Origin: Elioraea thermophila (ex Habib et al. 2022)
Lineage (GTDB): Bacteria > Pseudomonadota > Alphaproteobacteria > Acetobacterales > Acetobacteraceae
Direction of reading: 5' to 3'
Assembly: GCF_003336755.1 (NCBI RefSeq)
Contig: NZ_QMDI01000002.1
Location: 372,001-436,000 of the forward strand
Length of the DNA stretch: 64,000 nucleotides
In this document: positions 1,501-35,175 of the stretch, one piece after another
Layout: every line of letters begins with the position of its first letter
Position numbering within the stretch: position 1 is the first letter of the stretch
The notes under the pieces: model-generated
Databases searched by the model: none
What the model saw: only the letters and a program-made list of their open reading frames with translations
Told to the model about the DNA's origin: nothing
Made by a program: the position numbers and the translations under genes

Positions 1501-1979
1501 GTGCCGCAGCGCACGCGGATCGCGGAGATCGTGCTCGAGGCGGAGGCGCTGACCCGCCTCTCCGCCGAGCTCGAGGCCGATCGCGCCACCGCGGTGGCCG
1601 ACCTCTTGCACGACAACCGCTTCGTGCCGAAGGGCGCTCCCGAAGGCCCCTATTCGCTCAGGCTCGGGCTCGATCACGGGCGGCTCGTGTTCGACATCCG
1701 CCGCCTCGACGGCACGCCGATCACCGCCGTCGTGCTCGCCCTCGGCCCCTTCCGCAGCCTGATCAAGGACTACCTGATGCTGCTCGGCGCGCATCACGCC
1801 GCGGTGGCGGACGGGCACGAGGCCCGCATCCAGGCGATCGACATGGGCCGGCGCGGCCTGCACAACGAGGCGGCTGAACTGCTGCAGCGCCGCCTCGAAG
1901 GCAAGATCGAGGTCGATTTCGACACCGCCCGTCGGCTGTTCACCCTGATCTGCGTGCTGCACCAGAGGATCAACCACTG

Positions 1980-1980
<1 letters not shown>
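1501..1980 (+). CDS. UPF0262 family protein
   Basis: A 159 aa soluble protein recognised as UPF0262, a family of unknown function largely confined to alphaproteobacteria, where it is often linked to core metabolic genes. Typical stretches are LEADRATAVADLLHDNRFVP near the N terminus and SLIKDYLMLL in the middle. The GTG at 1501 gives the family length. Its TGA overlaps the ATG of mtnA by one base (TGATG), suggesting coupled translation. Confidence 0.75.
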
Positions 1981-3049
<1,069 letters not shown>

Positions 3050-3068
<19 letters not shown>

Positions 3069-5068
3069 ACACCGCGGCGTCGCGCGGCGAACCAGTTGGC
3101 GGCGAGCACCGGGACGACGACGGCGAGGCCGATCAGCGTCGGCGTCGTTCCCGGCGCGATCATCAGCACGGAAGCGGCGAGCAGCGGCGCGCGCGCCAGC
3201 CAGCCCATCGGGGCGAAGGCGTAGCCTGTCAGCGCAGCGCCGAGCGCACAGACCCCGACCGCGCAGGAGATCGTCACCAGCAGGAAGTCGCCCCAGGCGA
3301 AACCGGGCGCGACGATCAGCATCGCCGGCGAATAGGCGAACACGAAGGGCACCAGCGCCTTGGCCGAGCCGAGGCGAAAGGCGGTGAGCCCGGTGCGGAA
3401 CGGATTGGCGCCCGCAATGCCGGCGGCGGCGTACGCCGCGACGCACACCGGCGGCGTCAGATCGGCGAGCAGACCATAATAGAAGATGAACAGATGGGCG
3501 GCGATCGCCGGCACGCCGAGCTGCGTCACCGCCGGGGCGGCGATGGCGGCGAGCACGATGTAGAGCGCCGTCGTCGGCACCCCCGCCCCCATCGCGATGC
3601 AGGTGAGGGCGACGAAGACGAGGGTGAAGAAGAGTGCGAGCCCCTGAAGCGAGGCGAGTTCGAACGGCAGCCAGGAGAGGAGCGGCAGCACGCTCCCGGC
3701 GACGTTCTGCGCGGCCTGGGTCACCATGAAGGAGAGGCGGAAGGCGGCGCCGGTCAGCGTGATCACGCCGACCACGATGCCGACCGCCGCGGCGGCGACG
3801 CCGACGGCGAGGGCGTATTTCGCCCCGGTCTCCAGCGCCTCCCACAACTCACGCAGCGTCATCCGCTGCAGCGGGTTGAGAAGCCCCACGACGATGCAGG
3901 CGATGATGCCGTTGAAGGCGGCGAGATAGGGCGTGTAGCCCTGCATGATGGTGGCGACCAGGATGACGAGCGGGATCACGGTCGGCCAGCCGCGCCACAG
4001 CACAGGCCCGAGCCGCGGCATCTCGTCGTCCGTCAGCCCGCGCAGCCCTTCGCGCTTGGCTTCGAGATGCACCTGGATCAGCACGCCGAGGTAATGCATC
4101 GCCGCCGGAACGAGGGCGGCCGTGATGATGGTGGTGTACGGCACGCCCAGGAACTCGGTCATCACGAAGGCGGCCGCCCCCATGATCGGCGGCGTGATCT
4201 GCCCCCCCGCCGAGGCCGCCGCCTCCACCGCGCCCGCGAAGTGCGGGCGGTAGCCGATGCGCTTCATCGCGGGAATGGTGAGGCTTCCCGTCGTCACCGT
4301 ATTCGCGATCGAGGAGCCCGAGATCGAGCCGAAAAAGGCCGAGGCGACGACGGACACCTTGGCAGGCCCGCCCGGAAAGCGCCCGGCGATGACGGTCGCG
4401 ACGTCGATGAAGAACTGGCCGAGCCCCATCTTGGTCGCGATCGTGCCGAACAGCACGAAGTGGAAGACGAAGGTCGCCACCACCTTGAGGGGGATGCCGA
4501 AGATCCCCTCCTGCGTCATGTAGATCTGGCTGACGAAGTTCTCGACCGTCGCCCCCGGGTGGGCGAGCACGCCGGGCACGTGGTTGCCGTAGAGCCCATA
4601 GGCGATGAAGACGAGCACGATGATGGGCAGCACCAGCCCCATCGTGCGCCTTGTGGCTTCCAGCACGACGACGATCAGCGCGATGCCCATCACCAGGTCC
4701 CAGGTGTTGGGCACACCGATGCGGAAGGTGAGTACGTCGAAGTTGAGCGGCAGATAGAGGACGGCGGCGACGGCGAGCGCGACCAGCAGCCAATCGACGA
4801 TCGCCACACCGCCGAGGCTTGGCCCGAGCGGCACTCGGGCGTCGAAGAAGAGGAAGACGAGAGCGAGCACGGCGGCGAGGTAGGTCGCGTTGTGCCAGTG
4901 CTCGGGCGGCAGGCCGAAGCCGGCGGTGTAGATCTGGTAGACGGAGAGGGCGACCAGCACGAGCGACGCGAGCGGCTTGAGCAAGCCCGCCGGCTCGCGG
5001 AAGGCAAGCTCGCTGTCGTAGTGCCGCTCGAGTTCCGCTGCGCGATCGGCGTCGATCTCGCGCTTCAC
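3050..5068 (-). CDS. TRAP transporter fused permease (DctQM type, TAXI family)
   Basis: A 672 aa inner-membrane protein combining the small four-helix and the large twelve-helix TRAP subunits in one chain, the form found with TAXI receptors. Seen are a soluble N terminus (about 1-30), many hydrophobic helices, and the DctM-like stretch FFGSISGSSIANTVTTGS near residues 248-265. It would drive sodium- or proton-coupled uptake of an organic acid or similar solute delivered by the receptor encoded just upstream. It is the last gene of a minus-strand run beginning with the molybdenum hydroxylase genes. Substrate unknown. Confidence 0.92.
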
Positions 5069-5112
5069 GGCGGCCTCGCCGCCCCGCGCGCCGTCACCCG
5101 GCCCTTGCCGAC

Positions 5113-5139
5113 CTGCGGCGCACGCCTGCCGTGCCGCAG
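5113..5139 (-). promoter_or_regulatory. Intercistronic hairpin between TAXI receptor and permease genes
   Basis: An imperfect inverted repeat: six-base outer arms CTGCGG/CCGCAG, a two-base bulge, four-base inner arms CACG/CGTG and a five-base loop, placed in the 75-base gap after the receptor stop codon. No run of T follows, so it looks more like an mRNA-stabilising or attenuating hairpin than a full terminator. Such elements commonly let a binding-protein message outlast that of its permease; that role here is inference. Confidence 0.45.
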
Positions 5140-5143
5140 CACC

Positions 5144-6157
5144 TCAGCGCAGCATGCCCGCTTCGCGATAGAACCGTTCCGCACCCGGATGGAGCGGCAC
5201 TTCGCCGCGGCCGAGCAATGCGGTTTCGCGGCGGATGTCGCGCGCCCGCACATGCCCACGCTGCAGGAGCGAGGCGGTGGTGTCCGACCACAGCGACTTG
5301 GTGATCTCGTAGACGAGCGCCTCCGGCACCTGGGCACCGACCAGCCACACCGCGCCGACGACGAGGGTCGGCACGTCCTCCTCGATCCCCTCGTAGGTGC
5401 CGCGCGGGATCACACCCCGCGTGTAGAAGGGTGCCCGCTCGCTCACCCGCGCGATCACCTCGTCGGAGAAGGGAAGGAGGCGGCAACCAGCGCGGGCGCA
5501 GAACTCGGTGAAGGCGGCGGCGGGAGCGGCCACCACCTGCAGCACGGCGTCCATGCCACGGTCCTGCATCCGCTCGAGCCCCTGCGCGGCGGAGAGGAAC
5601 TCCGGCGTGTAGCGGCCCCTCAGCCCAGCCGCCTCGAGCACGAGTTCGGAGCCGATGCGGGCACCGGAGGCCTGCAGCCCCACGGTCACGCGCTTGCCGG
5701 CGAGGTCCTCCAAACGGGTGATCGGGCTGTCGCGGCGGACGGCGGCATGGAGCTGCTCGCCGAACAGGTAGGCGATGAAGCGCAGGCGATCGAGCTTCGG
5801 CCGCCCCTCGAACAGGCCCGTGCCGGTGTAGGCCCAGTGCGCGACGTCCGACTGCGAGAAGCCGCTCTCGGCCGCGCCCGACTGGATCAGGTTGACGTTC
5901 TGCACGCTGCCCTGGGTCGCCTGCGCCACCGCGACGAGGCCGGGCACGCCGGCGGTGCCGCCCGCCTCGCGGCAGGGTGCCCCCGGCGGGCAGGAGATCG
6001 CGTTCGCGATCATGCCGCCGACGGGATAGTAGGTACCACCCGCCGCTCCGGTGCCGATGCGGAAGAACTGCGGCGCCTGCGCGGCCGCCGGCAGGGCAGC
6101 ACCGATTGCCAGGGCGAAGGCCGCAGCCCCCAACACGCGCCGACGTCCGTTCCGCAT
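5144..6157 (-). CDS. TAXI family TRAP transporter solute-binding protein
   Basis: Periplasmic receptor of the TRAP system. The ATG at 6157 is chosen over an ATG seven codons upstream because a GGAGAG ribosome-binding site lies just before it and the protein then begins MRNGRRR, a good signal-peptide start. The signal peptide ends near AAAQA. Family marks are FFRIGTGAAGGTYYPVGGMIA at the mature N terminus and DLAGKRVTVG in the middle. Length 337 aa. The start lies 29 bases after the molybdenum hydroxylase stop, so the same transcript is likely; this suggests the solute is the enzyme substrate. Confidence 0.92.
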   Translation of the reverse strand: MRNGRRRVLGAAAFALAIGAALPAAAQAPQFFRIGTGAAGGTYYPVGGMIANAISCPPGAPCREAGGTAGVPGLVAVAQATQGSVQNVNLIQSGAAESGFSQSDVAHWAYTGTGLFEGRPKLDRLRFIAYLFGEQLHAAVRRDSPITRLEDLAGKRVTVGLQASGARIGSELVLEAAGLRGRYTPEFLSAAQGLERMQDRGMDAVLQVVAAPAAAFTEFCARAGCRLLPFSDEVIARVSERAPFYTRGVIPRGTYEGIEEDVPTLVVGAVWLVGAQVPEALVYEITKSLWSDTTASLLQRGHVRARDIRRETALLGRGEVPLHPGAERFYREAGMLR

Positions 6158-6186
6158 GGCTCTCTCCTGCTGTGGCAACGCGAACG

Positions 6187-8448
6187 CTAGCCCTCGCCTG
6201 CGGCTTCCGCAACGGCGGAGAGCACCGCGTCGGGGTTGAGCGGCAAAGAGCGGATGTCCGCCCCCGTCGCGTCCGCCACCGCATTGGCGATCGCCGCCGC
6301 CACGGCGAGAATGGCGTGCTCGCCCAAGCCCTTCGCGCCATGCGGCCCTGGCCCGAGCCCGTGTTCCAGCGTGATCGCCTCGAAGTCTCGCGGCAGGTCG
6401 AGCACGCTCGGCATGCGGTAGAGGAGCGGCGCGCCGTTGGCGAGACGCCCCTCGCCGTCGAAGGCAAGCGCCTCGATCAGCGCCTGGGCGAGGCCCTGCA
6501 CTGCGCCACCTTCCGTCTGCGCACGACAGCCGGCGGGGTCGATGGCGTGGCCGGCGTCACCCGCGACGACGAGGCGTTCGACCACAACGCGTCCCGTCTC
6601 GGCGTCGACCGTCACTTCGGCAGCGGCGAAGGAGGGCATCCAGAAGCCGCAGCGCGATCCCAAGGGGGCGGCGGCGTCGAACGGATTGCGCGCCTCGCCC
6701 TCGCCGATCAGTTCGCTGCCCTGGGCGCCGAAGGCGCGGTCGAACAGGGCCGGGATCGAGAGCACAACGTTGCCGCAACGGATCATGCCGGCCTCGAGCG
6801 CGATCTCGCCCGAGGCCTCGTCGATCACCTCCGCGGCGAGGGCAAGCAGGCGCTCGCGTACGGCTTCGGCGGCGCGGCGGATGGCGAGCCCGACCATCGC
6901 CGCACCGACCGAGGCATGCGTGCCCTGATCGTGCGGCGTGCGGTCGGTGTCGATGGGGGCGAGCCTGACTCGCGCGGGATCGATGCCCAGCACCTCGGCG
7001 ACGATCGCCGCCGCCACCCGTTCGGGACCCTGGCCGAGATCGGCGATGCCCGAGAGCACGAGGGCGGAGCCGTCGCGGGCGAGCTTAACCACGGCAAGGC
7101 TGCGGCGGGAGAAGCCCCCGCCGTCCTTCATGCCGACGGCGATGCCGCGCCCGCGCCCCGGCGCGCGCGCGCTGCTCCAGCCGATGCGACTGGCCACAGT
7201 GGCGAGACCGTCCTCGAGGTCGGAGTCCATCGGCGTCTCGCCGGGCCAGGGCGCCTCGCCGGGACGGAGAAGATTGCGCGCCCGGAACTCGACCGGGTCG
7301 AGGCACAAACGACGCGCGATCGCATCGAGCTGGCGTTCGCCGGCGAAACAGGCCTGAGGGCCGCCGAAGCCGCGGAAGGAGCCGGCGGGAACGGTCGCGG
7401 TGCGCACCACCTCGCCGACACTCTCCACCGCCTGCCACCGATAGGGCCCGGGCAGGCTGCGATAGGCCCCCTTCTCGCAGACGATGACCGAGGCATCCGC
7501 GTAGGCGCCGCCGTCGAGGCGAAGCAAGGCGCGGCGGGCGAGCAGCCGGCCTTCGGCGGAGACGGCCGTCGTCAGCGTCACCTCCGCGGCATGCTGCGAG
7601 AGGGTCAGCATCATCTCGTCCCAGGTCAGCGCGAGCCTCACGGGAGCGCGGGCGAGCCGAGAGAGGAGCAGCGTGAGCGCTTCGTGTTTCGGGTAGGACT
7701 TCGCCCCGAACCCCGCTCCGGCCGGCAGGGCGTGCACGCGGATCGCGGCCTCCGGCAGGGCGAAGATGCGGGCGAGATCGGTGCGCAGCAGGAACGGATC
7801 CTGGTTGTTGCACCACACCTCTCCGCCATCGCCGTCCCAACGCGCCACCGCGCACAGGGGTTCGATCGGCAGGTGGCTCATGCGCGGGAAACGGTAGGTG
7901 TCGGTGAAGACGTGCGCGGCGCGCGCGAACACGGCGTCAGCGTCCCCTGCCCGGAAGCGAAAGCGCCAGAGGACGTTGCGCGCCGGTTCGCGCCAGGCCT
8001 CGGCCCCCGGTCCCTTGGGCAGGTGTTCGGGCGGGCCCTGGTCGAACAGCGCCGGCGCATCCGGGGCGAGGGCGGCTTCGATGCTCGGCACCGGCGGCAG
8101 GACGCGCCAGCGCACGGTGATGCGGGCGGCAGCCCGTGCGGCGGCGGCCGGATCGCGCGCCACCACCGCGGCCACCGGCTCGCCCGTGTGGCGGGCCTTG
8201 CCGATGGCGAGCAGCGGCTGGTCGCGCACGACCACACCCTGCCAGGGGTCGAGCCCGGCGAGGTCGTCGGCGGTGGCCACCGCAACGACGTCAGGGTCGG
8301 CGAGTGCGGCGGCGGTGTCGATGGCGAGGATTTCCGCATGCGGATGCGGCGAGCGCACCAGCGCGGCATGCAGCATGCCGGGCAAGGCGAGGTCGATGGC
8401 GTAGGCGAAGGTGCCGCGCACCCGCGCGACATCGTTGGCGGCGGTCAT
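6187..8448 (-). CDS. Molybdenum hydroxylase large subunit (xanthine dehydrogenase/CoxL family)
   Basis: Catalytic subunit carrying the molybdopterin cofactor of a three-subunit hydroxylase. Recognised by the GAGFGAKSYPKHEAL and FRGFGGPQA cofactor loops and the C-terminal KGLGEHAI motif, whose Glu corresponds to the catalytic Glu of the family. At 753 aa it is slightly short for CoxL-type proteins. The CO dehydrogenase signature is not apparent, so an N-heterocycle, aldehyde or purine hydroxylase is more likely than CO oxidation. It overlaps the iron-sulfur subunit gene by four bases (ATGA) and is followed by a TRAP transporter. Confidence 0.9.
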   Translation of the reverse strand: MTAANDVARVRGTFAYAIDLALPGMLHAALVRSPHPHAEILAIDTAAALADPDVVAVATADDLAGLDPWQGVVVRDQPLLAIGKARHTGEPVAAVVARDPAAAARAAARITVRWRVLPPVPSIEAALAPDAPALFDQGPPEHLPKGPGAEAWREPARNVLWRFRFRAGDADAVFARAAHVFTDTYRFPRMSHLPIEPLCAVARWDGDGGEVWCNNQDPFLLRTDLARIFALPEAAIRVHALPAGAGFGAKSYPKHEALTLLLSRLARAPVRLALTWDEMMLTLSQHAAEVTLTTAVSAEGRLLARRALLRLDGGAYADASVIVCEKGAYRSLPGPYRWQAVESVGEVVRTATVPAGSFRGFGGPQACFAGERQLDAIARRLCLDPVEFRARNLLRPGEAPWPGETPMDSDLEDGLATVASRIGWSSARAPGRGRGIAVGMKDGGGFSRRSLAVVKLARDGSALVLSGIADLGQGPERVAAAIVAEVLGIDPARVRLAPIDTDRTPHDQGTHASVGAAMVGLAIRRAAEAVRERLLALAAEVIDEASGEIALEAGMIRCGNVVLSIPALFDRAFGAQGSELIGEGEARNPFDAAAPLGSRCGFWMPSFAAAEVTVDAETGRVVVERLVVAGDAGHAIDPAGCRAQTEGGAVQGLAQALIEALAFDGEGRLANGAPLLYRMPSVLDLPRDFEAITLEHGLGPGPHGAKGLGEHAILAVAAAIANAVADATGADIRSLPLNPDAVLSAVAEAAGEG

Positions 8449-8933
8449 GGCGTCTCGCGCATCAGCTCGGCGGCCCGGCGCACCGCCCGCAGGATGGCGG
8501 CCCCACCGCCGCAGCGGCAGAGCGCGGCACTCATCCAGCCGCGGATGGTCCCCTCGTCGGGGTCAGGGTTCTCGGCGAGCAGGGCGGAAGCGAGCAGCAC
8601 CATCCCGGGAGTGCAGGAGCCGCACTGCAGCGCACGTTCCTCGAGGAAGGCGCGCTGCACGGGATGCAGGGTGCCGTCCGCCCGCTCGAGGCCGCGGATG
8701 GTGGTGATGCGACGCCGATCCGCCTCCACGGCCAGCATCAGGCAGGCGGTGGCGGGAACGCCGTCGATCAGCACCGTGCACGCACCGCACACCCCGCCGT
8801 CGCAGCCCGCGCGCACGCCGATGATGCCGAACTCCTCCCGCAGGAGGTCGATCAACAGCCGGTTGGTCGCGACGGTGGCGACGACGGCGCGACCGTCGAG
8901 GTCGAAGGTGATCCGTTCCGTGTGATCAACCAT
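8445..8933 (-). CDS. Molybdenum hydroxylase [2Fe-2S] subunit (CoxS family)
   Basis: Small electron-transfer subunit with two [2Fe-2S] clusters. The plant-ferredoxin-type motif GCDGGVCGACTV plus a later Cys lies in the N-terminal half (about residues 38-60), and the second cluster set, CGSCTPGM and CRCGG, in the C-terminal half. Length 162 aa is normal. It overlaps the FAD subunit gene by eight bases at its start and the large subunit gene by four bases at its end, so the three genes form one coupled operon. Confidence 0.95.
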   Translation of the reverse strand: MVDHTERITFDLDGRAVVATVATNRLLIDLLREEFGIIGVRAGCDGGVCGACTVLIDGVPATACLMLAVEADRRRITTIRGLERADGTLHPVQRAFLEERALQCGSCTPGMVLLASALLAENPDPDEGTIRGWMSAALCRCGGGAAILRAVRRAAELMRETP

Positions 8934-9783
8934 CGGCGAGGCGGGTGATCAGGCGCGTGGCGAGGACGGCGGCGGCGCGGCGGCGCCAGGTCGCGCCGGG
9001 CGTGCCGGGTGGCAGGTGATCGGGTTCGGGCAGGGCGCGCGCCCACGCTTCCGCAAGGCGTTGCGCCTCGCGGCCGAGAGCCGCGCGGTCGAGCTCCGCC
9101 GCGTCGGCAAGATCGGCGACGACCGCGCACCGATGCGCGCCACCCAGCGCGAGACGAAGCGTCCGCACGCGCCCCCCCTCGAACCGGGCGGCGGCGGAGA
9201 CGACCAGCCAGGGGCGAAGGCTGCGGTCGTGCGCAAAACGGACGCCGGCGGGCATGTCGATGCCGAGCACCAGGCCGCGCGGGGCGTGCCAGGGCGCGAC
9301 GATCGTTTCGCCTCGTACGCGACAGACGAGGCGGGCATTCAAGGCGGCAAGGGCGGGCGGTGCGTCGTATTGCGGCAGGCCGGCGAGCAGGCAGCCCGCG
9401 AGCGTGCCCTGGTGGCGAATGCGGATGTTGGCGATGCTTCCCCACGCCTCGGCGAAGCCGGGCACCGCCGCCCGCAGGAGAGGATCGCGCGCCACCCGCT
9501 CATGCGTGGCGAGCGCGCCGATGCGCACGCCCCCCTCGCAGGGCTCGATCCCGTCGAGGCCCGCGATCCCCCGCAGCAACACGACCGTGCGCGGCGGGCC
9601 GCCGAACTTCAGCCCTGCGATCACCTCGACCCCACCGGCCATGGCGATCGCGTCCGGCTCCGCGAGCATCGCCGCTGCCTCGTCGACATCGCGCGGACGA
9701 CGAAGCGCGAGTGGCGGGATCAGCCAGCGCGAGCGCAGCGGCAGCGTGCCCGTTGCCTCCGTGGTGTGCAGGGTACCGTCCAT
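8926..9783 (-). CDS. Molybdenum hydroxylase FAD-binding subunit (CoxM family)
   Basis: Medium subunit of the hydroxylase, binding FAD and passing electrons onward. Visible are the PPLALRRPRDVDEAAAML start of the domain, AGGVEVIAGLKFG (first FAD loop) and RIRHQGTLAGCL (second loop, a variant of the usual TIGG motif). Length is 285 aa with the ATG at 9783; no strong ribosome-binding site is seen, so the start is less certain. It is the first gene of the minus-strand hydroxylase/TRAP run; its promoter should lie in the 123-base gap to the divergent membrane protein gene. Confidence 0.88.
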   Translation of the reverse strand: MDGTLHTTEATGTLPLRSRWLIPPLALRRPRDVDEAAAMLAEPDAIAMAGGVEVIAGLKFGGPPRTVVLLRGIAGLDGIEPCEGGVRIGALATHERVARDPLLRAAVPGFAEAWGSIANIRIRHQGTLAGCLLAGLPQYDAPPALAALNARLVCRVRGETIVAPWHAPRGLVLGIDMPAGVRFAHDRSLRPWLVVSAAARFEGGRVRTLRLALGGAHRCAVVADLADAAELDRAALGREAQRLAEAWARALPEPDHLPPGTPGATWRRRAAAVLATRLITRLADG

Positions 9784-25422: not shown

Positions 25423-26763
25423 TCATCCGCCGTGCTCCACCCGCTGCCACCAGGCCAGGGTCTCCGCGTGCAGCCGTTCGCGCAAGCCCTCGTCGGCCAC
25501 GAGGCTCACCGCATCGTCGAGGAAGGCCTGGACGAGGATCGACTTCGCTTCGGCCTCGGGGATGCCGCGGCTGCGCAGGTAGAAGAGCGCCTCGAGGTCG
25601 AGCTCGCCGACCGTCGCGCCGTGGCTGCACTTCACGTCGTCGGCGTAGATCTCGAGCTGCGGCTTGGCGTCGATCTCGGCTTCGGGGCTCAACAGCAGCG
25701 CCTGGTTCATCTGATAGCCGTCGGTCTTCTGCGCGGCGCGATGGACGTGGATCTTGCCCTGGAACACCCCCCGCGCGCGCCCCGCGAGCACGGTCTTCAC
25801 CGTCTGGCGCGAGGCGCAGTCGGGAGCGGCGTGCTCGATCACCGTCGTGGTGTCGGCGTGGCGGACGCCGTCGACGAGCTGGGCGCCGTTGAGATGGAGC
25901 GCGGCATGCGGCCCGGCCAGCACCGCGTGCACCTCGTTGCGCGTGAGCCGCGCCCCCTTGATCAGCGTGAAGCTGTCGTACTCCGCGCCTTGCTCGACGC
26001 GCACGGCGAGGGTGGCGGTGTGAACGGCCGAGAGCGGTTCGTCCTGCAGGCGGATGTGGATCAGGCGCGCGCCCGGACCGAGCTGGATCTCGCTCACCAC
26101 GTTCTGCCAGGCGAAGGCCTCCGGCTCGCCGCGCGCCTCCTCGACCAGCACGAGCCGTGCGCCGCGGCCGAGCCGGATCAGGTGGCGGGGATGGAAGGCG
26201 ACCGGGTGGCCAGCGCGGGCGGTGGCGTAGGAGAGGATGCGGATCGTTCCGCCGTCCACACCATCGGCAATTCGGACCACCGCCCCGTCCTCGGCGAGTG
26301 CCGCGTTGAGCGCGGGCAGCGGCAGCGTTTCGGGCGCAAGCCCGCCGAGGCCTGCGACGGTCTCCTCGTCGCGCGCTCGCAGCAGGTCGGCGAGGCTTGC
26401 GATCGCGACACCCGGCGCGAGATGGCTGACCGCCGAGAGGTCGCGCCGCACCCGCCCGTCGATCAGGACGAGAAGCGGGCCCTCCTCCTCCTCGAGGTCG
26501 AGGGGGGGACGGATGTCGGCGGCGAGGATCGGCTCCTCGAACCGCGTTTCGCGCAGCAGGGCGAGGTCGGTGTACTTCCAGGCCTCGACACGGCGCGTGG
26601 GAAAGCCCTGGGACGCGAAGGTCTCCGCCCCGCGCGCGCGCCAGGCGGCGACGACGGGGTGGCGCGCGCCGGGTAGGCGTTCGGCAAGACCGCGCGCGCG
26701 ATCGAGCAGATGCGCGACCGCGTCGGACCCGGCCGCGGCGGGGGCGTCCAGCACCTCGACCAT
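25423..26763 (-). CDS. sufD: Fe-S cluster assembly protein SufD
   Basis: Beta-helix partner of SufB in the SufBC2D scaffold, 446 aa. Seen are the N-terminal helical part with RRVEAWKYTDLALL and the C-terminal half with KTDGYQMNQALLLS, YADDVKCSHGATVGELD and LFYLRSRGIPEAEAKS, which carry the conserved Cys and His near the SufB interface. The ATG at 26763 lies seven bases after the sufC stop and gives the family start; an ATG 11 codons upstream lies within sufC. Confidence 0.95.
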   Translation of the reverse strand: MVEVLDAPAAAGSDAVAHLLDRARGLAERLPGARHPVVAAWRARGAETFASQGFPTRRVEAWKYTDLALLRETRFEEPILAADIRPPLDLEEEEGPLLVLIDGRVRRDLSAVSHLAPGVAIASLADLLRARDEETVAGLGGLAPETLPLPALNAALAEDGAVVRIADGVDGGTIRILSYATARAGHPVAFHPRHLIRLGRGARLVLVEEARGEPEAFAWQNVVSEIQLGPGARLIHIRLQDEPLSAVHTATLAVRVEQGAEYDSFTLIKGARLTRNEVHAVLAGPHAALHLNGAQLVDGVRHADTTTVIEHAAPDCASRQTVKTVLAGRARGVFQGKIHVHRAAQKTDGYQMNQALLLSPEAEIDAKPQLEIYADDVKCSHGATVGELDLEALFYLRSRGIPEAEAKSILVQAFLDDAVSLVADEGLRERLHAETLAWWQRVEHGG

Positions 26764-26770
26764 GCCCGCC

Positions 26771-27517
<747 letters not shown>

Positions 27518-27590
27518 CGCGCCTTCCATTGCCTTGTCGCAGCGATCCGCCACCGTTCCGCTTTCGCCCGCCGCCATCGCTCCCGAAGCG

Positions 27591-29045
27591 TCAGCCCACG
27601 CTGCCCTCGAGGCTGATCGCGAGCAGCTTCTGCGCCTCGACGGCGAACTCCATCGGCAGCTCCTTCAGCACCTCGCGGGCGAAGCCGTTGACGATCAGCC
27701 CAACCGCCTCCTCTTCGGTCATGCCGCGCTGGCGGCAATAGAAGAGCTGATCCTCGGCGATGCGGCTCGTCGTCGCCTCGTGCTCGACGCGGGCGGTGGG
27801 GTTGCGGGACTCGATGTAGGGCACGGTGTGCGCCCCGCAGCGATCGCCGATCAGCAAGGAATCGCACTGGGTGAAGTTCCGCGCGTGCTGCGCCTTGGGC
27901 AGGATGCGCACCAGGCCGCGATAGGTGTTCTGCCCCTCGCCCGCCGAGATCCCCTTGGAGACGATGGTCGAGCGGGTGCGGGGCCCGATGTGGATCATCT
28001 TGGTGCCCGTATCCGCCTGCTGGCGGTTGTTGGTGATCGCGACCGAGTAGAACTCGCCGACCGAACCTTCGCCCTGCAGGATGCAGGAGGGGTATTTCCA
28101 GGTGATCGCCGAACCGGTCTCCACCTGCGTCCAGGAGATCTTGCTCTTCGCCCCGCGGCAGGCGCCGCGCTTGGTGACGAAGTTGTAGATGCCGCCGCGG
28201 CCCTCGGCGTCGCCCGGGTACCAGTTCTGCACCGTTGAGTACTTGATGGTCGCCTCATCCAGCGCGACGAGTTCGACCACCGCGGCATGCAGCTGGTTCT
28301 CGTCGCGCTGCGGTGCCGTGCAGCCCTCGAGGTAGGAGACGTAAGCGCCCTCCTCGGCGACGATCAGCGTGCGCTCGAACTGGCCGGTGTTGCGCGCGTT
28401 GATGCGGAAATAGGTGGAGAGCTCCATCGGGCAGCGCACGCCCTTCGGCACGTAGACGAAGGAGCCGTCCGAGAACACCGCCGAATTGAGCGCGGCGAAG
28501 AAGTTGTCCGAGGGCGGCACCACGGTGCCGAGGAAGCGGCGGACGAGATCGGGGTGCTCGCGCACCGCTTCGGAGAAGGAGCAGAAGATCACGCCGGCTT
28601 CGGCGAGCTTCTCCTTGAAGGTGGTGGCGACACTGACGCTGTCGAACACGGCGTCCACCGCGACACCGGCGAGCCGCTCCTGCTCGCGCAGCGGGATGCC
28701 GAGCTTCTCGTAGGTGCGCAGGAGCTCGGGGTCGACCTCGTCGAGCGACTTCGGCTGGGCCTTCCGTTTCGGTGCGGCGTAGTAGTGCAGATCCTGGTAG
28801 TCGATCGGCGGGTAACGCACGGCCGCCCAGCGCGGCTCCTCCATCGCGCACCACGCACGGAAGGCCTTCAGCCGCCATTCGAGCAGCCACGCGGGCTCCT
28901 CCTTCTTGGCGCTGATCAGGCGGATGATGTCCTCATTCAGCCCCTTGGGGATCAGCTCCTGCTCGATCGGGGTTTCGAAGCCCCACCGGTAGCCACCTTC
29001 GGTGACGTCGCGGACGGTCTCGAGCGTGTCGGTCGCTGCGGGCAT
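27591..29045 (-). CDS. sufB: Fe-S cluster assembly protein SufB
   Basis: Main scaffold subunit of SufBC2D, 484 aa. Typical sequence includes [19 protein letters not shown] at the N terminus, [40 protein letters not shown] and [23 protein letters not shown] with the conserved C-terminal Cys residues. The ATG at 29045 gives the expected N terminus. First structural gene of the suf run, 41 bases after the regulator. Confidence 0.97.
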
Positions 29046-29086
29046 GTCGTGATCCGTTCCCGTTTCTTTCGGTTCCCCTCGCGCGG

Positions 29087-29533
29087 TCAGCCCACGCTTG
29101 CCGCCACGGCGGGCGGTGGCGGAGCCCAGGCCGGGCAGGCCATGTCGGCCAGCGTGATCTCGGAGAGCGCGCGCCGGATCGCCGCGTTCACCGGGTCCCA
29201 GCGCCCGCGCACCCGGCAGGTGCATTCGTGTTCACAGCCCCCTGCGTGCTCCACGCAGGCGGCGAGCGCGATCGGGCCCTCCACGGCGTCGATCACGTCG
29301 CTGATCGCGGTCTCGGCGAGCGGGCGGGCGAGGCGATAGCCACCATGCGGGCCACGCTGGCTGACGACGAGGCCACCCGCGGCGAGCAGCTTGAGCACCT
29401 TCGCCACCGTGGGTTCCGCGATGCCGGTGGCGACCGCGAGCGCCGAAGCGTTGCGCACGGCACCGTCCGGTGCCGTGCCGAGTTCGCTCAACAGAACCAC
29501 CGCGTAGTCGCTCAATTTCGACAGCCGAAGCAC
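29087..29533 (-). CDS. sufR: Rrf2 family Fe-S sensing regulator of the suf operon
   Basis: A 148 aa winged-helix regulator. The start [19 protein letters not shown] is the Rrf2 N terminus, and a cysteine cluster suited to an Fe-S cluster lies at Cys93, Cys100, Cys104 and Cys106 ([14 protein letters not shown]). It probably senses cluster supply and represses the suf genes that follow it. The GTG at 29533 matches family starts. An ATG at 29572 inside a tandem repeat would add 13 residues beginning MGNGGQHGEWW; that form is less likely. Confidence 0.9.
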
Positions 29534-29540
29534 GGCCAAC

Positions 29541-29577
29541 CACCATTCCCCATGCTGCCCACCATTCCCCATGCTGC
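29541..29577. repeat. Two-copy tandem repeat upstream of the suf regulator
   Basis: CACCATTCCCCATGCTGC occurs twice, at 29541-29558 and 29560-29577, offset by 19 bases. It ends eight bases from the regulator GTG on the minus strand and contains two upstream ATG codons. It could be a pair of operator half-sites for the Rrf2 protein or another regulator, or a chance duplication. A shorter GCAATGGTGGG-like word recurs near 29690. Confidence 0.6.
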
Positions 29578-29744
29578 GCCCCGCCTCCTTCCTTCCTGCT
29601 GGTTCGGCGGGCGAGACGCAATCCGGACCTCAGCGGTCCTGAATGCGAGATGCGTCCGCGAATCGGCGATGTCAAGTTAAATGGAGGGCAATGGTGGGTC
29701 GCCGGCACCGAGGCGCAGCCGATTGCCGCTGGAGCAGGTTAAGA

Positions 29745-30569
29745 ATGATTGAAAGCAAGCGAAGTGGGTTGGCAAATCCTATTGGGCCTGAGGGAGATCC
29801 TATTCGGCCTGAGGGAGAAAATTTTGAGCGCAAGTCAAAATTTTTTCGATCACAAAGCAATAATGAGTCTGACCTAGAGCCCGTCAAGACGCTTACAGCT
29901 TTCGCAAACACCGCAGGAGGCACTATACACTTCGAGATACTTGAGGGATGTAACCTAAAAGATCTCGATTCTGCACGAATCGATGACTTATGCCGCAGGT
30001 ATGTCGCGCCGCCGCTGCCAAATATTCAGAGTCAATCTGATGGAAAAAAAGGGATCTTAATTTCAATTCCTAAATCCCCATTGCGACCGCATGTGTTCAA
30101 GACCGCTGGAAATTTTCTGTTTGATGGTAAACAAAAGAATTACTTTTACCCTGGACAAATCGTAGTCCGACATTCTTCGAAGACAGAGCCTGCCGATGCA
30201 AACGACCTCCAAAAGATTTTTGAAGAAAAGCTTATCGCTAAGATAAAAGGTATTGGTGACCAGTTAGTTTTATTTGCACAGAAACTGAAGGACTCGTCAG
30301 AAGGCCTACCGGTTCAGCTCGTCGACGACAATTCTGCTATTCCTCTGGGAATTCCTGATCTCTCGCCGCTGTATCCTTACACCTATAAGCAGCTAGAGGA
30401 AAAAACGAGAATTAAAGGCAAGTCACTTCGCAAAATTTTTGACAAATATAGGATCAAAGAAAAACGACAATTTTCAATAAAGATCGAGTATGGTAAGACA
30501 ACTATTTTTAAATATTCGGAGCATGTGTTAGACTTTTTACGTAATCTGGCTTCAGAAGAAGCGGCTTAG
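29745..30569 (+). CDS. AT-rich Schlafen/AlbA_2-domain protein, horizontally acquired
   Basis: A 274 aa protein in DNA far poorer in G+C than its surroundings: two sampled 60-base lines have 43% and 32% G+C, against 78% in hisZ. Residues 41-160 read as an AlbA_2/Schlafen-type domain: ESDLEPVKTLTAFANTAGG, then PPLPNIQ, LISIPKSPLRPHVFK and IVVRHSSKTEPADANDLQ. The last 100 residues are charged, Lys-rich and unrecognised. The N terminus holds a seven-residue repeat. The ATG at 29745 has GGAG about 12 bases upstream. Such domains occur in nucleic-acid binding, antiviral and regulatory proteins; the actual role is unknown. No integrase or partner gene is adjacent. Confidence 0.75.
   Translation: MIESKRSGLANPIGPEGDPIRPEGENFERKSKFFRSQSNNESDLEPVKTLTAFANTAGGTIHFEILEGCNLKDLDSARIDDLCRRYVAPPLPNIQSQSDGKKGILISIPKSPLRPHVFKTAGNFLFDGKQKNYFYPGQIVVRHSSKTEPADANDLQKIFEEKLIAKIKGIGDQLVLFAQKLKDSSEGLPVQLVDDNSAIPLGIPDLSPLYPYTYKQLEEKTRIKGKSLRKIFDKYRIKEKRQFSIKIEYGKTTIFKYSEHVLDFLRNLASEEAA
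29776..29817 (+). repeat. 21-base in-frame tandem repeat
   Basis: Two adjacent 21-base units with one mismatch, starting ATCCTATT and ending CTGAGGGAG. They encode NPIGPEG and DPIRPEG at residues 11-24 of the AlbA_2-like protein, a Pro/Gly-rich linker before the domain. Confidence 0.9.
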
Positions 30570-30697
30570 GCTCCGCTGCCATGGCTACATAATTCGTAAA
30601 TTCGGAAAATCCTTCGTCCCATGCCTGACCCAATCCTGTCGGTCCATGCTCCCCCTCCGCGCGCGCCCCCTTCCTTGCTACACCCGCGCGCTCCGCC

Positions 30698-31834
30698 ATG
30701 AACGACCGCGCCCTTGCCCTCCTCCCCCCTGGCCTGCGCGACCTCCTGCCCCCGGAGGCCGAGATCGAGGCCGCCGCCATCGAGGCCATGGCAGCGGTGT
30801 TCGCCGCCCACGGCTACGAGCGGGTGAAGCCGCCCTTGCTCGAATTCGAGGAGAGCCTCTTGGGTGGCGCCGGCGCCTCCACCGCCGAGGTCGCCTTCCG
30901 GCTGATGGATCCTGTCAGCCACCGCATGCTGGCGTTGCGCGCCGACATCACGCCCCAAGTCGCCCGCATCGCCGCCGTCCGTCTCGCCCGCGCGCCCCGC
31001 CCCCTTCGTCTCTGCTACTCCGGCCAGGTGCTGCGCGTGCGGGGAACCGACCTGCGCGGCGCCCGCCAGATGTCCCAGGCCGGCATCGAGCTGATCGGCA
31101 GCGACTGCGCGGAGGCCGACGCCGAGGTGATCGCCGTCGCCGCCGAAGCACTCGCCGCCCTCGGCGTGCCGGCCGTCAGCTTCGACCTCACCCTGCCCAC
31201 GCTGGTGGACGAGCTTCTCGCCCCGCTCGCGCTTGCCCCCGCGCGCGAGCAGGCGCTGCGGCACGCGATCGACCGCAAGGACGCGGCCGAAGTGGCGGCG
31301 CTGGCCGGCCCGCTCGCCGATACGCTCGATGAGCTCCTGCACGCCGCGGGCCCCGCTGATCGCGCCCTCGAGGCGCTGGCCGCGGCCAACCTGCCCCCGG
31401 CAGCGCGGGCTCTGGCCGACCGCCTCGCCGCCACCGTCGCCGCCGTGCGCGCCCGCGACCCCGCCATCCGTCTCACCGCCGATCCGCTCGAATTCCGTGG
31501 CTTCCGCTATCACCGCGGGGTGGCGTTCACGATCTTCTCCGCCGCGGTGGCGGACGAGTTGGGCCGCGGCGGGGCCTACCGCGCGGGCGAGGAGCCGGCC
31601 ACGGGGGTCTCGCTCTATCCGGACGCCGCGCTTGCCGCCGCCGCGCCGCGCCCGCCGCGCCCCCGCGTCTTCGTGCCTGCCGGCACGCCGCCGGCCGAGG
31701 CCGCCGCTCTGCGCCAGCAAGGCTTCGCCACCGTGCTGGGGCTCGACCCGGTGGCCGACGCGGTCGCCGAGGCCCGGCGCCTCGGCTGCAGCCATGTCGC
31801 CGTGGGCGCCTCTGCCCGCCCGATCGAGGAGTGA
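30698..31834 (+). CDS. hisZ: ATP phosphoribosyltransferase regulatory subunit
   Basis: A 378 aa paralogue of histidyl-tRNA synthetase that activates short-form HisG in histidine synthesis. The class II fold is seen in [14 protein letters not shown], the motif-2-like [11 protein letters not shown] and [16 protein letters not shown]. It has no anticodon-binding domain, as expected for HisZ. hisG is not in the window. It is followed four bases later by purA, so the two are probably co-transcribed. Upstream AT-rich sequence belongs to the neighbouring acquired segment and may supply its promoter. Confidence 0.93.
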
Positions 31835-31838
31835 CAAC

Positions 31839-33128
31839 ATGGCCAACGTCGCCGTCATCGGCGCGCAGTGGGGAGACGAGGGCAAGGGCAAGGTGGTCGA
31901 TTGGCTCGCCTCGCGCGCCGACATCGTCGTGCGCTTCCAGGGCGGGCACAACGCCGGCCACACCCTGGTTGTCGGCAATCAGACCTACAAGCTGAGCCTG
32001 CTGCCGTCAGGCGTGGTGCGCGGCAAGCTCGGCATCATCGGCAACGGCGTGGTGCTCGACCCCCAGGCCCTCCTCGACGAGATCGCCCGGCTCGGCGCGC
32101 AAGGGGTGGCGGTGACGCCCCGGAACCTGCGGATCGCCGAGAACGTGCCGCTGATCCTGCCGCTGCATCCCGCCCTCGATCGCGCGCGCGAGGCGGCCCG
32201 GGGGGCGGCGAAAATCGGCACCACGGGGCGGGGGATCGGCCCTGCCTATGAGGACAAGGTGGCGCGCCGCGCGATTCGCCTCTGCGACCTCGCCGAGCCC
32301 GAGACGCTGTCGGCGAAGCTCGACGAGCTCCTGCGCCACCACAACACACTTCTGCAAGGCCTTGGCGCTGAACCTTTTTCCAAGGAGACATTGCTTGCCG
32401 AACTGCTCGACCTCGCCCCGCGGCTGCTGGCTTACGCCGAGCCCGTCTGGCAGCGGCTCGATCGGGCGCGGCGCGAAGGTGCCCGGATCCTGTTCGAGGG
32501 GGCGCAGGCCGTGATGCTCGACATCGACCACGGCACCTACCCCTTCGTCACCTCCTCCAGCACGGTTGCGGGCAACGCCGCTGCCGGCTCCGGCATCGCC
32601 CCCTCCGCGATCGGGCGGGTGCTCGGCATCGCCAAGGCCTACACCACGCGGGTCGGCGCCGGCCCCTTCCCGACCGAACTGCACGACGAGACGGGCCGGC
32701 TGATCGGCGAGCGGGGCCGGGAGTTCGGCACCGTCACCGGCCGGCCGCGCCGCTGCGGCTGGTTCGACGCCGCCCTGGTGCGCCAAGCGGTGAAGGTGGG
32801 CGGGATCGAGGCGCTGGTGCTGACCAAGCTCGACGTGCTGGATGGGCTCCCGGAGCTGAAAATCGGCGTAGGCTACGAGATCGCCGGGCGGCGGTTCGAC
32901 CATCTTCCGGCCGCGCCGGGGGCGCAGGCCGCCGCCCAGCCGATCTACGAAACCATCGAGGGCTGGCAGGGCTCGACCCGGGGCGCCCGCTCCTGGGCCG
33001 ACCTGCCGGCCGCCGCGATCAAGTACATCCGCCGCATCGAGGAACTGGTCGAGGCGCCGGTGATGGTGCTCTCCACCAGCCCCGAGCGCGACGACACCAT
33101 CGTCATGCGCGACCCCTTCGCCGACTGA
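31839..33128 (+). CDS. purA: Adenylosuccinate synthetase
   Basis: GTP-dependent enzyme joining IMP and aspartate in AMP synthesis, 429 aa. The P-loop is [11 protein letters not shown], followed by [44 protein letters not shown] and the C-terminal [10 protein letters not shown] guanine-binding region. ATG at 31839 lies four bases after hisZ. Confidence 0.97.
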
Positions 33129-33204
33129 TCCCAGCTCCGGCCGCCGTTAACCGCACCGCAACCCTCCATGCGCGAGCATGCGGGGGAAAGGGAGCGGAGG
33201 GCGC

Positions 33205-35175
33205 GTGGCGAACGAGCGGCTCGAGATCGGAGGTTTCACGGCCGATCCCCAAGCGCCGGTCGCCGGCTTCGCCCCGGCGGGGTTGCCATGCTTCCGTGCT
33301 TTGGGCGCGGACGGAACCCAAGTCGTCGCCGTGCTGTGCCGCAACGAGCATCCGGCGCGGCTGCGCGCCATCCTGCGTCTGATCGACGAGCCCGACCTCC
33401 CGGGGCTGCTGCGGCCGCTTGCGCAGGATGTCGTGGTCTGGAGCGGGTCGGCGCTGCGCGCCGTGGTCTATGAGGCACCGCCGGGACCTGCCCTGCTGCG
33501 CCCGGGCCAGCGGGCTGAGCCGATGCGGGAAGGCGACCTGATCCAGAACGTGGTCAGACCGATCGGCCGCGCCCTGCTCACGCTCGGTGATCTCGGCCTC
33601 ACCCATCGTGGCATCCGGCCGGACAACCTGTTTCGGGCCGGCAACGGCCCCGTCTTGCTGGGCGACGGCTTCTGCACCCCGCCTGCCCTGGCCCAGCCGG
33701 CCGCCTTCGAGGACCCGGCCACCGCCGTCTGTCTGCCCGCCGGGCGGGGTGAGGGGACGATCGCCGACGACCTCTACGCCCTCGGCGTCACCCTGGTCGC
33801 CCTGGCCATGGGGGAGTGGCCGCTTGCCGGGCGGGACGACGCCGCCGTGATCCGCGCCAAACTCGAGCACGGCAATCTGGTCGCCGTCGTCGGCGAGAAC
33901 CGTTTGCCGGGCGGGATCGCCACCCTGGTGCGGGGCTTGCTCGCCGAGGATCCGGCGCGGCGGCCGCAGCCGGCGGAGCTCGCCGGCTGGCCTGGCACGG
34001 CGAAGGTCCGTCCCGTATCCGCCCGCCCTCTGCCGCGCGCTTCGCGCGGCTTGCGCATCGGCAAGGTTGAGGTGCGCGATCTCCGCAGCCTCGCCTTCGC
34101 CCTCGGCCGAAACTGGTCCGAGGGGGCGGAAGCGCTGCGCTCCGGCGCCGTCGCGGTCTGGGTCGAGCGCGGGTTGGGCCAGCCTGTGCTGGCCGCCAGG
34201 CTGCGCGAGCTGACGGGTCCGCTGCCTCGTGGTGACGAGCCGTTCGACGGTACGATGTGTCGGGCGATCGCGGCGCTCGACCCGCACGCACCGCTGTTCT
34301 GGCAGGGCAAGGCCCTGATGCCGGATGGCATCGGTGCCGTGCTGGCCGAAACGCTGCTCGCTCCTTCGCCGTCCGGCCTGCCGCTCGCCGCGCTCGACGC
34401 CTTGATCGGTGACATGGTGATCGCGCGCTGGGCCTCCGTGCCGGGCGAGCGTCCGCACGACGCTATGGCGCTCGATCGGGCGGCGCGGCGCTACCGCCTG
34501 GTCTGGCGCAACGCCAACTTGGGGTCGGGTCCGGAACGCCTGCTCTACGCCCTCAATCCCGCTCTGCCCTGCCTGTCGCCGCTGATCGCCGGCGAGGCCG
34601 CCGGGACGGTGCCGGCCGCACTTGCCGCCCTCGAGCGGCGTGCCGGCGGCTTGGCGCGCGGCACTCTGCCGATCGACCGTCACCTCGCCGCCTTCATCGC
34701 CGTGCACATGGACGGGCGGCTCGACGACGCGCTGGCCGCCGTCGGCGCCGCCACCACGCCCGCGGAGGCGGCGGTCGCCGCCATGGCCGTGTTCGCCCAG
34801 TTGCAGACCACACACCGTTCCGCGCCGATGCCGGCTCTGGCCGGTCTGCTCGCCGACCTCGCCATGCCAGCCCTGGCGCAGTGGCGGGAGCGAGCGCGGC
34901 GCGAGCGGGCCACGGCAGAGGCCGCTGCGGTTGCCGCCAGCGGCGACTTGGCGCGGCTGCACGCCCTGTTCGCCGACCCGCAGGCTCGGGCGCGCGACTC
35001 GATCGCTTTCGCCCAGGCGCGGCGAGAGGCACAGGAGGCGGCACAGGCGATCGCCCGCCTCCGCCACGATCGGGCGGCGCGCGAGGCGGAAGCCCGCCGC
35101 CTCGGTGCGCGCCTCTCGCACGCGACGGGGCTCGTCGTGCTCGCGCTGACCTTGCTGTCGCTGTCGGGGGTGTGA
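33205..35175 (+). CDS. Protein-kinase-like protein lacking catalytic Asp, C-terminal membrane anchor
   Basis: A 656 aa protein. Residues about 30-270 have a protein-kinase fold: LTHRGIRPDNLF (133-143) at the catalytic loop, GDGF (153-156) at the DFG position, DDLYALGVTLVALAMGEWPL for helix F and LLAEDPARRP for helix H. The catalytic Asp of HRD is Gly136 and DFG is rearranged, and no glycine loop is evident, so it is probably a pseudokinase. The middle (290-560) is unrecognised; the end has a charged helical stretch and one membrane helix (about 637-655). The GTG at 33205 has GGAGG before it; an ATG at 33178 is possible. The next gene starts three bases later. Confidence 0.72.
   Translation: MANERLEIGGFTADPQAPVAGFAPAGLPCFRALGADGTQVVAVLCRNEHPARLRAILRLIDEPDLPGLLRPLAQDVVVWSGSALRAVVYEAPPGPALLRPGQRAEPMREGDLIQNVVRPIGRALLTLGDLGLTHRGIRPDNLFRAGNGPVLLGDGFCTPPALAQPAAFEDPATAVCLPAGRGEGTIADDLYALGVTLVALAMGEWPLAGRDDAAVIRAKLEHGNLVAVVGENRLPGGIATLVRGLLAEDPARRPQPAELAGWPGTAKVRPVSARPLPRASRGLRIGKVEVRDLRSLAFALGRNWSEGAEALRSGAVAVWVERGLGQPVLAARLRELTGPLPRGDEPFDGTMCRAIAALDPHAPLFWQGKALMPDGIGAVLAETLLAPSPSGLPLAALDALIGDMVIARWASVPGERPHDAMALDRAARRYRLVWRNANLGSGPERLLYALNPALPCLSPLIAGEAAGTVPAALAALERRAGGLARGTLPIDRHLAAFIAVHMDGRLDDALAAVGAATTPAEAAVAAMAVFAQLQTTHRSAPMPALAGLLADLAMPALAQWRERARRERATAEAAAVAASGDLARLHALFADPQARARDSIAFAQARREAQEAAQAIARLRHDRAAREAEARRLGARLSHATGLVVLALTLLSLSGV

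Follow-up and report, generated by a model that had tools for sequence, protein, structure and literature searches.

Among the genes of the window, by which we mean the whole 64-kb stretch (64,000 nucleotides) of the Elioraea thermophila genome analysed here, one is probably an AT-rich, horizontally acquired single gene. This gene, P0001, lies between a regulator gene of the suf cluster and hisZ, and its product joins an AlbA_2 domain of the Schlafen type to a C-terminal module with few recognisable counterparts. We give a roughly even chance to the reading that P0001 is a horizontally acquired, stand-alone Schlafen-type effector, predicted to be an RNase, that serves phage defence. Neither AlbA_2 proteins nor Schlafen defence in bacteria is new; bacterial Schlafens are only now gaining recognition as anti-phage RNases (PMC12839542), and several Schlafen-linked systems can counter phage by tRNA cutting, according to statements in the same paper that cite a 2025 preprint. 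A literature search, with bioRxiv and most subscription journals beyond its reach, found no paper on the AlbA_2-plus-tail form. The coordinates of the features discussed below are collected in Table 1.

Table 1. Features in and around P0001 (positions in the window; a dot marks a feature given no strand).
Feature	Position	Strand	Basis
Rrf2-type suf regulator gene, empty-site flank	29087..29572	-	named by eye from translation
Segment that congeners G003 and G004 lack	29660..30650	.	local alignments of flanks and multiple alignment
GGAGCAGG, plausible ribosome-binding stretch before the P0001 ATG	29731..29738	+	read from sequence
AlbA_2/Schlafen-type gene P0001	29745..30569	+	intact open frame, 274 aa
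SLFN_AlbA_2 domain, residues 23-150	29811..30194	+	Pfam PF04326, E 5.9e-8, 33.7 bits against a cut-off of 25.3
Glu23-x4-Glu28-x-Lys30, counterpart of the first two Schlafen active-site acids	29811..29834	+	conservation in alignment A9; SLFN13 E205/E210
Glu67, in the position of the third acid	29943..29945	+	Asp in 27/29 other A9 rows
C-terminal module, residues 163-270	30231..30554	+	PADLOC PDC-S19, E 7.7e-5
hisZ, empty-site flank	30698..31834	+	named by eye from translation

A probably foreign gene at a variable junction

The original prediction singled out an intact, AT-rich orphan in GC-rich surroundings, and in this it holds up well. The G+C content of P0001 is 42.2%, with 39.6% at third codon positions against 90-92% in five neighbouring genes, and the 2452 overlapping 825-bp windows taken elsewhere in the 64 kb have a mean of 71.1% (sd 2.5, lowest 65.1%), which places P0001 about 11.6 sd under the mean of these overlapping windows of equal length. 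The 825-bp frame is unbroken and is preceded by a plausible ribosome-binding site; an alternative in-frame ATG at 29643 would extend the product to 308 aa. Its orphan and probably acquired status likewise agrees with its alien composition, its single copy in its own genome, and the lack of any match among 346 other sampled genomes of the family. An Rfam scan of 29000-31000 returned no match, and a promoter and terminator scan yielded about as many predictions as shuffled sequence did. Early in the gene, at 29771-29812, the PEG segment that bears Glu23 is doubled by a tandem duplication of 21 bp (86% alike).

Judged by eye from the translations, P0001 has suf genes and the Rrf2-type regulator on one side and hisZ and purA on the other. 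The junction could be read across in four of six congeners (G002, G003, G004 and G006); hisZ was not found in G005, the contig of G001 ends before sufR, and G001, G003, G004 and G005 are 75-88% complete. In G004 (L003/L154) and G003 (L004/L155), sufR and hisZ are neighbours across a short junction with no P0001-like gene, and P0001 is thus not a resident of this locus in all relatives. Homology of the flanks to these two genomes ends at 29659 and restarts at 30651, such that about 991 bp in the window replace some 103-121 bp there; the first 80 bp or so of this segment are mixed in G+C (47-77% in 30-bp steps). The distance between sufR and hisZ is 5-6 kb in G002 and G006, where the intervening block (L156 1950-7680 and L157 2250-7320) consists of high-G+C frames absent from the window, G003 and G004. 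By eye, these frames resemble gph, rpe, marR, emrA and emrB, with an additional eamA in G002, and the G001 contig carries part of the same gph/rpe/marR/emr block. Accordingly, the sufR-hisZ locus varies within the genus. It had been suggested that variable cargo here would mark a defence hotspot; the variability is borne out in the four congeners read, but defence cargo was recognised by eye in none of them, the variants being ordinary-looking genes or nothing. We therefore do not read the junction variation in the genus as proof of defence cargo, given that the frames of G002 and G006 look ordinary by eye. Around P0001 itself, between 26000 and 34000, no defence gene, mobility gene or partner was recognised by eye.

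No clear target-site duplication was recognised at the inserted segment. Near its two ends, at 29569-29597 and 30644-30679 and about 1.08 kb apart, there are copies of two imperfect direct repeats, one of 12 nt (83%) and one of 16 nt (88%); they may reflect either chance in G+C-rich DNA or the trace of a segment exchange. Upstream of the Rrf2-type suf regulator, at 29625-29639, there is also an inverted repeat, GGACC-N5-GGTCC, that occurs exactly once in the window, where 0.13 exact matches would be expected, and is conserved in G003 and G004; it is perhaps the operator of that regulator.

A Schlafen-type domain with most of its acidic site

The AlbA_2 domain proposed for the N-terminal half was not rejected by profile search, as the Pfam match exceeds its cut-off (Table 1); its proposed extent of residues 41-160 was wrong, the match covering residues 23-150. 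An AlphaFold2 model was built on alignment A9, which comprises P0001 and 29 rows hand-picked from at least 80 genome-contig loci that had been found with another alignment, A5. The model has a mean pLDDT of 64.2, being confident over the AlbA_2 region and uncertain over the tail (by blocks of ten residues, 76-94 for residues 41-120, 51-64 for 121-140 and 86-91 for 141-160). In Foldseek, the only matches at E up to 0.001 were four chains of 3lmm (DIP2311), with a best E of 3.7e-4 and low TM-scores (0.33 to the query for 3lmm). Structural alignment with VIA-align gave SLFN14 (Z 9.9, rmsd 4.5, 130 residues aligned), 3lmm (Z 9.7, rmsd 4.1, 126 aligned), SLFN13 (Z 9.5, rmsd 4.7, 136 aligned), SLFN12 (Z 9.1, rmsd 4.3, 129 aligned) and the tRNase domain of SAMD9 (Z 8.5, rmsd 4.5, 138 aligned). 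In this comparison overall, 3lmm, the Schlafens and SAMD9 ranged from Z 7.2 to 9.9, with one SLFN14 row at 6.2, while IF3-like folds reached 5.5 at most. As modelled, the N-terminal half of P0001 has the Schlafen-core fold.

The active site of SLFN13 comprises Glu205, Glu210 and Asp248; mutation of any of the three is reported to lower its activity, and E205A and E210A to abolish it wholly (PMC5862951). The corresponding acids of SAMD9L are given as E186, E198 and D243 (PMC11221667), and rabbit SAMD9 is reported to lower tRNA-Phe (PMC12331169). To judge from alignment, P0001 keeps most of this acidic site, namely Glu23, Glu28 and Lys30, with Glu rather than Asp as the third acid. In the remaining 29 rows of A9, Glu23 and Lys30 are conserved in 29/29 and position 28 is Glu in 26 and Asp in 3, though conservation inside the AFANTAGG and PEG...E.K motifs is partly due to the selection of the A5 loci, from which the rows come, by these very patterns. 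At the third-acid position, occupied by Glu67 in P0001, 27 of the same rows have Asp and 2 have Asn, and position 64 is Gly in all 29 and Glu in P0001. By these alignments, the departures at Glu64 and Glu67 count against catalysis. Moreover, the acidic site alone is no proof of catalysis, because SLFN5 is described as keeping the acid triad and binding tRNA without cutting it (PMC8789055).

Known proteins with this domain differ from P0001 in architecture. The mammalian AlbA_2 tRNases SLFN13 and SAMD9 share the fold and the acidic site, but they are two-lobed or embedded in large proteins and have Asp as third acid. Bacterial Schlafens with a HATPase_c_4 tail (a Schlafen RNase, a minimal histidine kinase and a wHTH), reported beside BREX (PMC12839542), likewise share AlbA_2 and the acidic site; the four scanned are, unlike P0001, 465-544 aa long and carry HATPase_c_4, for which P0001 gave no match at E up to 10. 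The PADLOC defence candidate PDC-S50 is also an AlbA_2 family and is matched by the N-terminal piece of L125 and by L129, L150 and L153, but not by P0001 itself.

The C-terminal module

The last 100 residues had been described as Lys-rich and unrecognised. With 13 lysines they are mildly, not strongly, Lys-rich, and the second part of the description does not wholly stand, given two matches: a weak one to PADLOC PDC-S19 (Table 1), and one at E 3.7e-5 to a hidden Markov model (HMM) of the tails of the AlbA_2 proteins L125, L127 and L128. The HMM, from which P0001 had been left out, was run against 10,576 open frames and ranked P0001 top outside its training rows. A shorter version gave P0001 E 3e-5 with the next match at 0.48; in a longer version P0001 was followed by L129 (2.3e-4), L131/L153 (5.9e-4) and L150 (0.067), over the middle part only. 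Pairwise comparison of P0001 with the L125 tail gave E 2e-6. In terms of sequence, P0001, L125, L127 and L128 thus probably have a C-terminal module in common.

It is suggestive that PDC-S19/DUF3644 (HEPN) proteins may have the module too. DUF3644 has been linked to the EC042_2821 HEPN family (PMC3710099), and the C-terminal modules of these proteins are weakly similar to that of P0001. The best PDC-S19 model is matched at profile positions 230-336 of 355, leaving its DUF3644/HEPN half unmatched, and three further PDC-S19 models match the tail more weakly. Residues 216-268 score 20.3 bits against EC042_2821 (PF18740), under the cut-off of 24.9, as do the DUF3644 proteins L040 and L041, which were found with that very model and likewise stay under it. 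As a control at E 0.01, PDC-S19 matched none of the AlbA_2 proteins L129, L150 and L153, nor L127, and matched L128 at E 0.0016. In the reverse direction, the tail HMM reached the HEPN-type L123 and L122 at E 0.85 and 4.1 only, and hhalign of the tails gave a probability of 15.8% (E 0.0016) for L122; for a set of five tails taken from hits to PDC-S19 and PF18740, of which L123 and L124 were assigned by eye, it gave 2.9%. The three PDC-S19 proteins scanned (L122, L040 and L041) differ from P0001 in having an N-terminal DUF3644 in place of AlbA_2.

Residues 213-270 are predicted, at low confidence and in agreement between two models, to form a winged-helix-like arrangement of helix, helix, strands and helix. 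A single-sequence model of the isolated tail (mean pLDDT 59) had a best Foldseek E of 0.27, and VIA-align related it to MerR-type DNA-binding winged helices with no Z above 4.2. Such a predicted tail is consistent with nucleic-acid binding. The name of PF18740 would instead imply a restriction-endonuclease domain, which we do not take as established, given a match under the cut-off and a predicted topology that is winged-helix-like.

Distribution and relatives

The AlbA_2 domain is common, and its combination with a tail of the P0001 type is rare within the genomes searched. At E 0.001, P0001 matched one of 60 relatives and one of 347 sampled genomes of the family, its own genome being counted in both. 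In a sample of the phylum at E 0.01, five of 398 genomes matched; the hits were P0001 itself, three proteins of the AlbA_2-HATPase type and a secretin, L033, which we rejected as a relative. PDC-S19 matched only the home genome of P0001 among 299 genomes of the phylum, and PF18740 matched two of 398, the home genome not among them. Alignment A6, which contains P0001 and so matches the home genome by construction, matched 28 of 150 phylum genomes, and among the matches listed only that of the home genome reaches the tail end. The same alignment matched 76 of 99 Bacteroidota genomes, many in frames of 200-250 aa; the one match listed there that extends to the tail end is that of G834, the genome to which L125 belongs. 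PDC-S19 matched five of 148 Bacteroidota genomes at E 0.01 (among them L122 strongly and L125 weakly) and none of 22 genomes of A5 loci. Genome contigs gave no match to P0001 and at least 80 loci with A5; a phmmer search of these loci with P0001 recovered the AlbA_2 half, and of the tail no more than stray short stretches. Plasmids gave five weak matches to P0001, of which the three scanned all carry AlbA_2, and two chance matches to the tail alone. Phage records gave no match to P0001 or the L125 tail piece, and two weak matches to L128 over the AlbA_2 half; viral contigs searched with P0001, its two halves, A5, L127, the L125 tail piece and L128 yielded no confirmed relative. P0001 had no match in NCBIfam or among sequences of solved structures, and only weak matches in PHROGs (best E 0.009). 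In these searches as a whole, P0001 had no close homologue.

The closest architectural relatives were reached through L125. They are L127, a Psychrobacter plasmid protein (WP_181717480.1, 327 aa, 28% identity to P0001 in alignment), and L128, a Legionella sainthelensi plasmid protein (WP_101901935.1, 338 aa, 23% identity in alignment). Both carry AlbA_2 and, by alignment A7, the same kind of C-terminal module, but they differ from P0001 (274 aa) in having, by eye, about 50 extra residues between the domains. BLASTP with P0001 found nothing significant in L127 and only the AlbA_2 half in L128 (E 2e-5). The third relative, L125 in Bacteroidota (L151 9880-10874, minus strand), is split over two frames with the second out of register, and represents either a broken gene or a sequencing error.

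Defence context is found in some AlbA_2 relatives and is missing in others and around P0001. The L127 gene lies 210 bp behind hsdR on the same strand as the hsdM-hsdS-hsdR genes of a type I restriction-modification (R-M) system, which sets it apart from P0001. Among AlbA_2 proteins with a different tail, L150 has genes for AbiJ, a DNA methyltransferase and RloB close by and L153 is convergent with an AIPR gene. The PDC-S19 gene of L152 follows an abortive-infection gene, also AIPR, after a gap of about 10 bp. The L128 gene sits on a conjugative plasmid with a recombinase gene nearby; by eye, the stretch viewed around L129 contains Hsp70-type genes and no defence gene, and L125/L151 has no recognised defence neighbour. 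Since some AlbA_2 relatives adjoin R-M, AbiJ or AIPR genes, the defence role first envisaged for P0001 is plausible.

What P0001 may do

If P0001 is an effector, its AlbA_2 domain, likely as a dimer, would grip structured RNA such as tRNA, by analogy with SLFN13 and SAMD9, and Glu23, Glu28 and Glu67 would cut it. The winged-helix-like module might bind nucleic acid or a phage signal and restrain the nuclease, which infection would then free, so that translation stops in the manner of abortive infection. That such a single-gene, Schlafen-type RNase is encoded here seems to us about evenly poised. It accords with the Pfam match and the ranking of 3lmm, Schlafens and the SAMD9 tRNase as top folds, with conservation of acids whose counterparts inactivate SLFN13 when mutated to alanine (PMC5862951), with a tail akin to PDC-S19 and to L125, L127 and L128, with the defence genes near L127, L150, L153 and the PDC-S19 protein of L152, and with an alien G+C content and an empty site in congeners. 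Against it stand the lack of a recognised defence gene at 26000-34000 or, by eye, beside L129 and L125/L151, a length short of L127 and L128, the departures from Gly64 and Asp67, the BLASTP results with L127 and L128, low Foldseek TM-scores, the empty NCBIfam search, a HEPN link that is weak outside the PADLOC profile, and the reported precedent of SLFN5, which binds tRNA uncut (PMC8789055).

The shortness of P0001 and its departure from the family at two conserved sites also leave room for a regulator or for decaying cargo. As a DNA-binding transcriptional regulator, P0001 would bind DNA through AlbA_2 and the winged-helix-like tail and leave RNA uncut. Work on prokaryotic Argonautes regards AlbA_2 as a domain that binds DNA (PMC6299218), the low-confidence tail model resembles MerR-type domains (Z at most 4.2), AlbA_2-type matches are frequent in Bacteroidota (the 76 of 99 genomes found with A6, many frames of 200-250 aa), and the third acid and Gly64 are changed; we nonetheless think a regulator unlikely, given that both key Glu residues and the Lys are retained, that an alien orphan has no evident target operon of its own, and that some relatives adjoin R-M, AbiJ and AIPR genes. 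Slightly less probable still, in our estimation, is a stranded and decaying passenger of gene transfer that has lost the job it did in its donor: the same shortness and substitutions, the strongly mismatched G+C, the want of a mobility gene or partner at 26000-34000 (by eye) and the frame-broken state of L125/L151 would all suit it, but the frame of P0001 is intact behind a plausible ribosome-binding site, the domain is modelled with confidence, and key residues are kept.

Returning to the effector reading, we tentatively entertain a broader idea, which we think possible but would not favour: that a single winged-helix-like sensor or targeting module serves as an interchangeable partner of either of two RNase effectors that are not related to each other, HEPN (DUF3644/PDC-S19) and Schlafen AlbA_2. 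On this idea P0001, L127, L128 and L125 would form a family, rare and as yet unnamed, of minimal Schlafen effectors for defence that are under the control of this module.

Other features of the related loci

Two further observations concern loci from the relative searches. In L152 (Bacteroidota, 1702-9229, plus strand), kinase-helicase, PLD-like (a weak match), AIPR and PDC-S19 (DUF3644) genes are closely spaced on one strand, and possibly form a single multi-gene defence operon. Finally, the 515-aa AlbA_2 protein L153 (8198-9742, minus strand) and the DUF3644 protein L041 (1468-2673, minus strand) have N-terminal helix-turn-helix-like stretches that are alike by eye and could be a second shared module.
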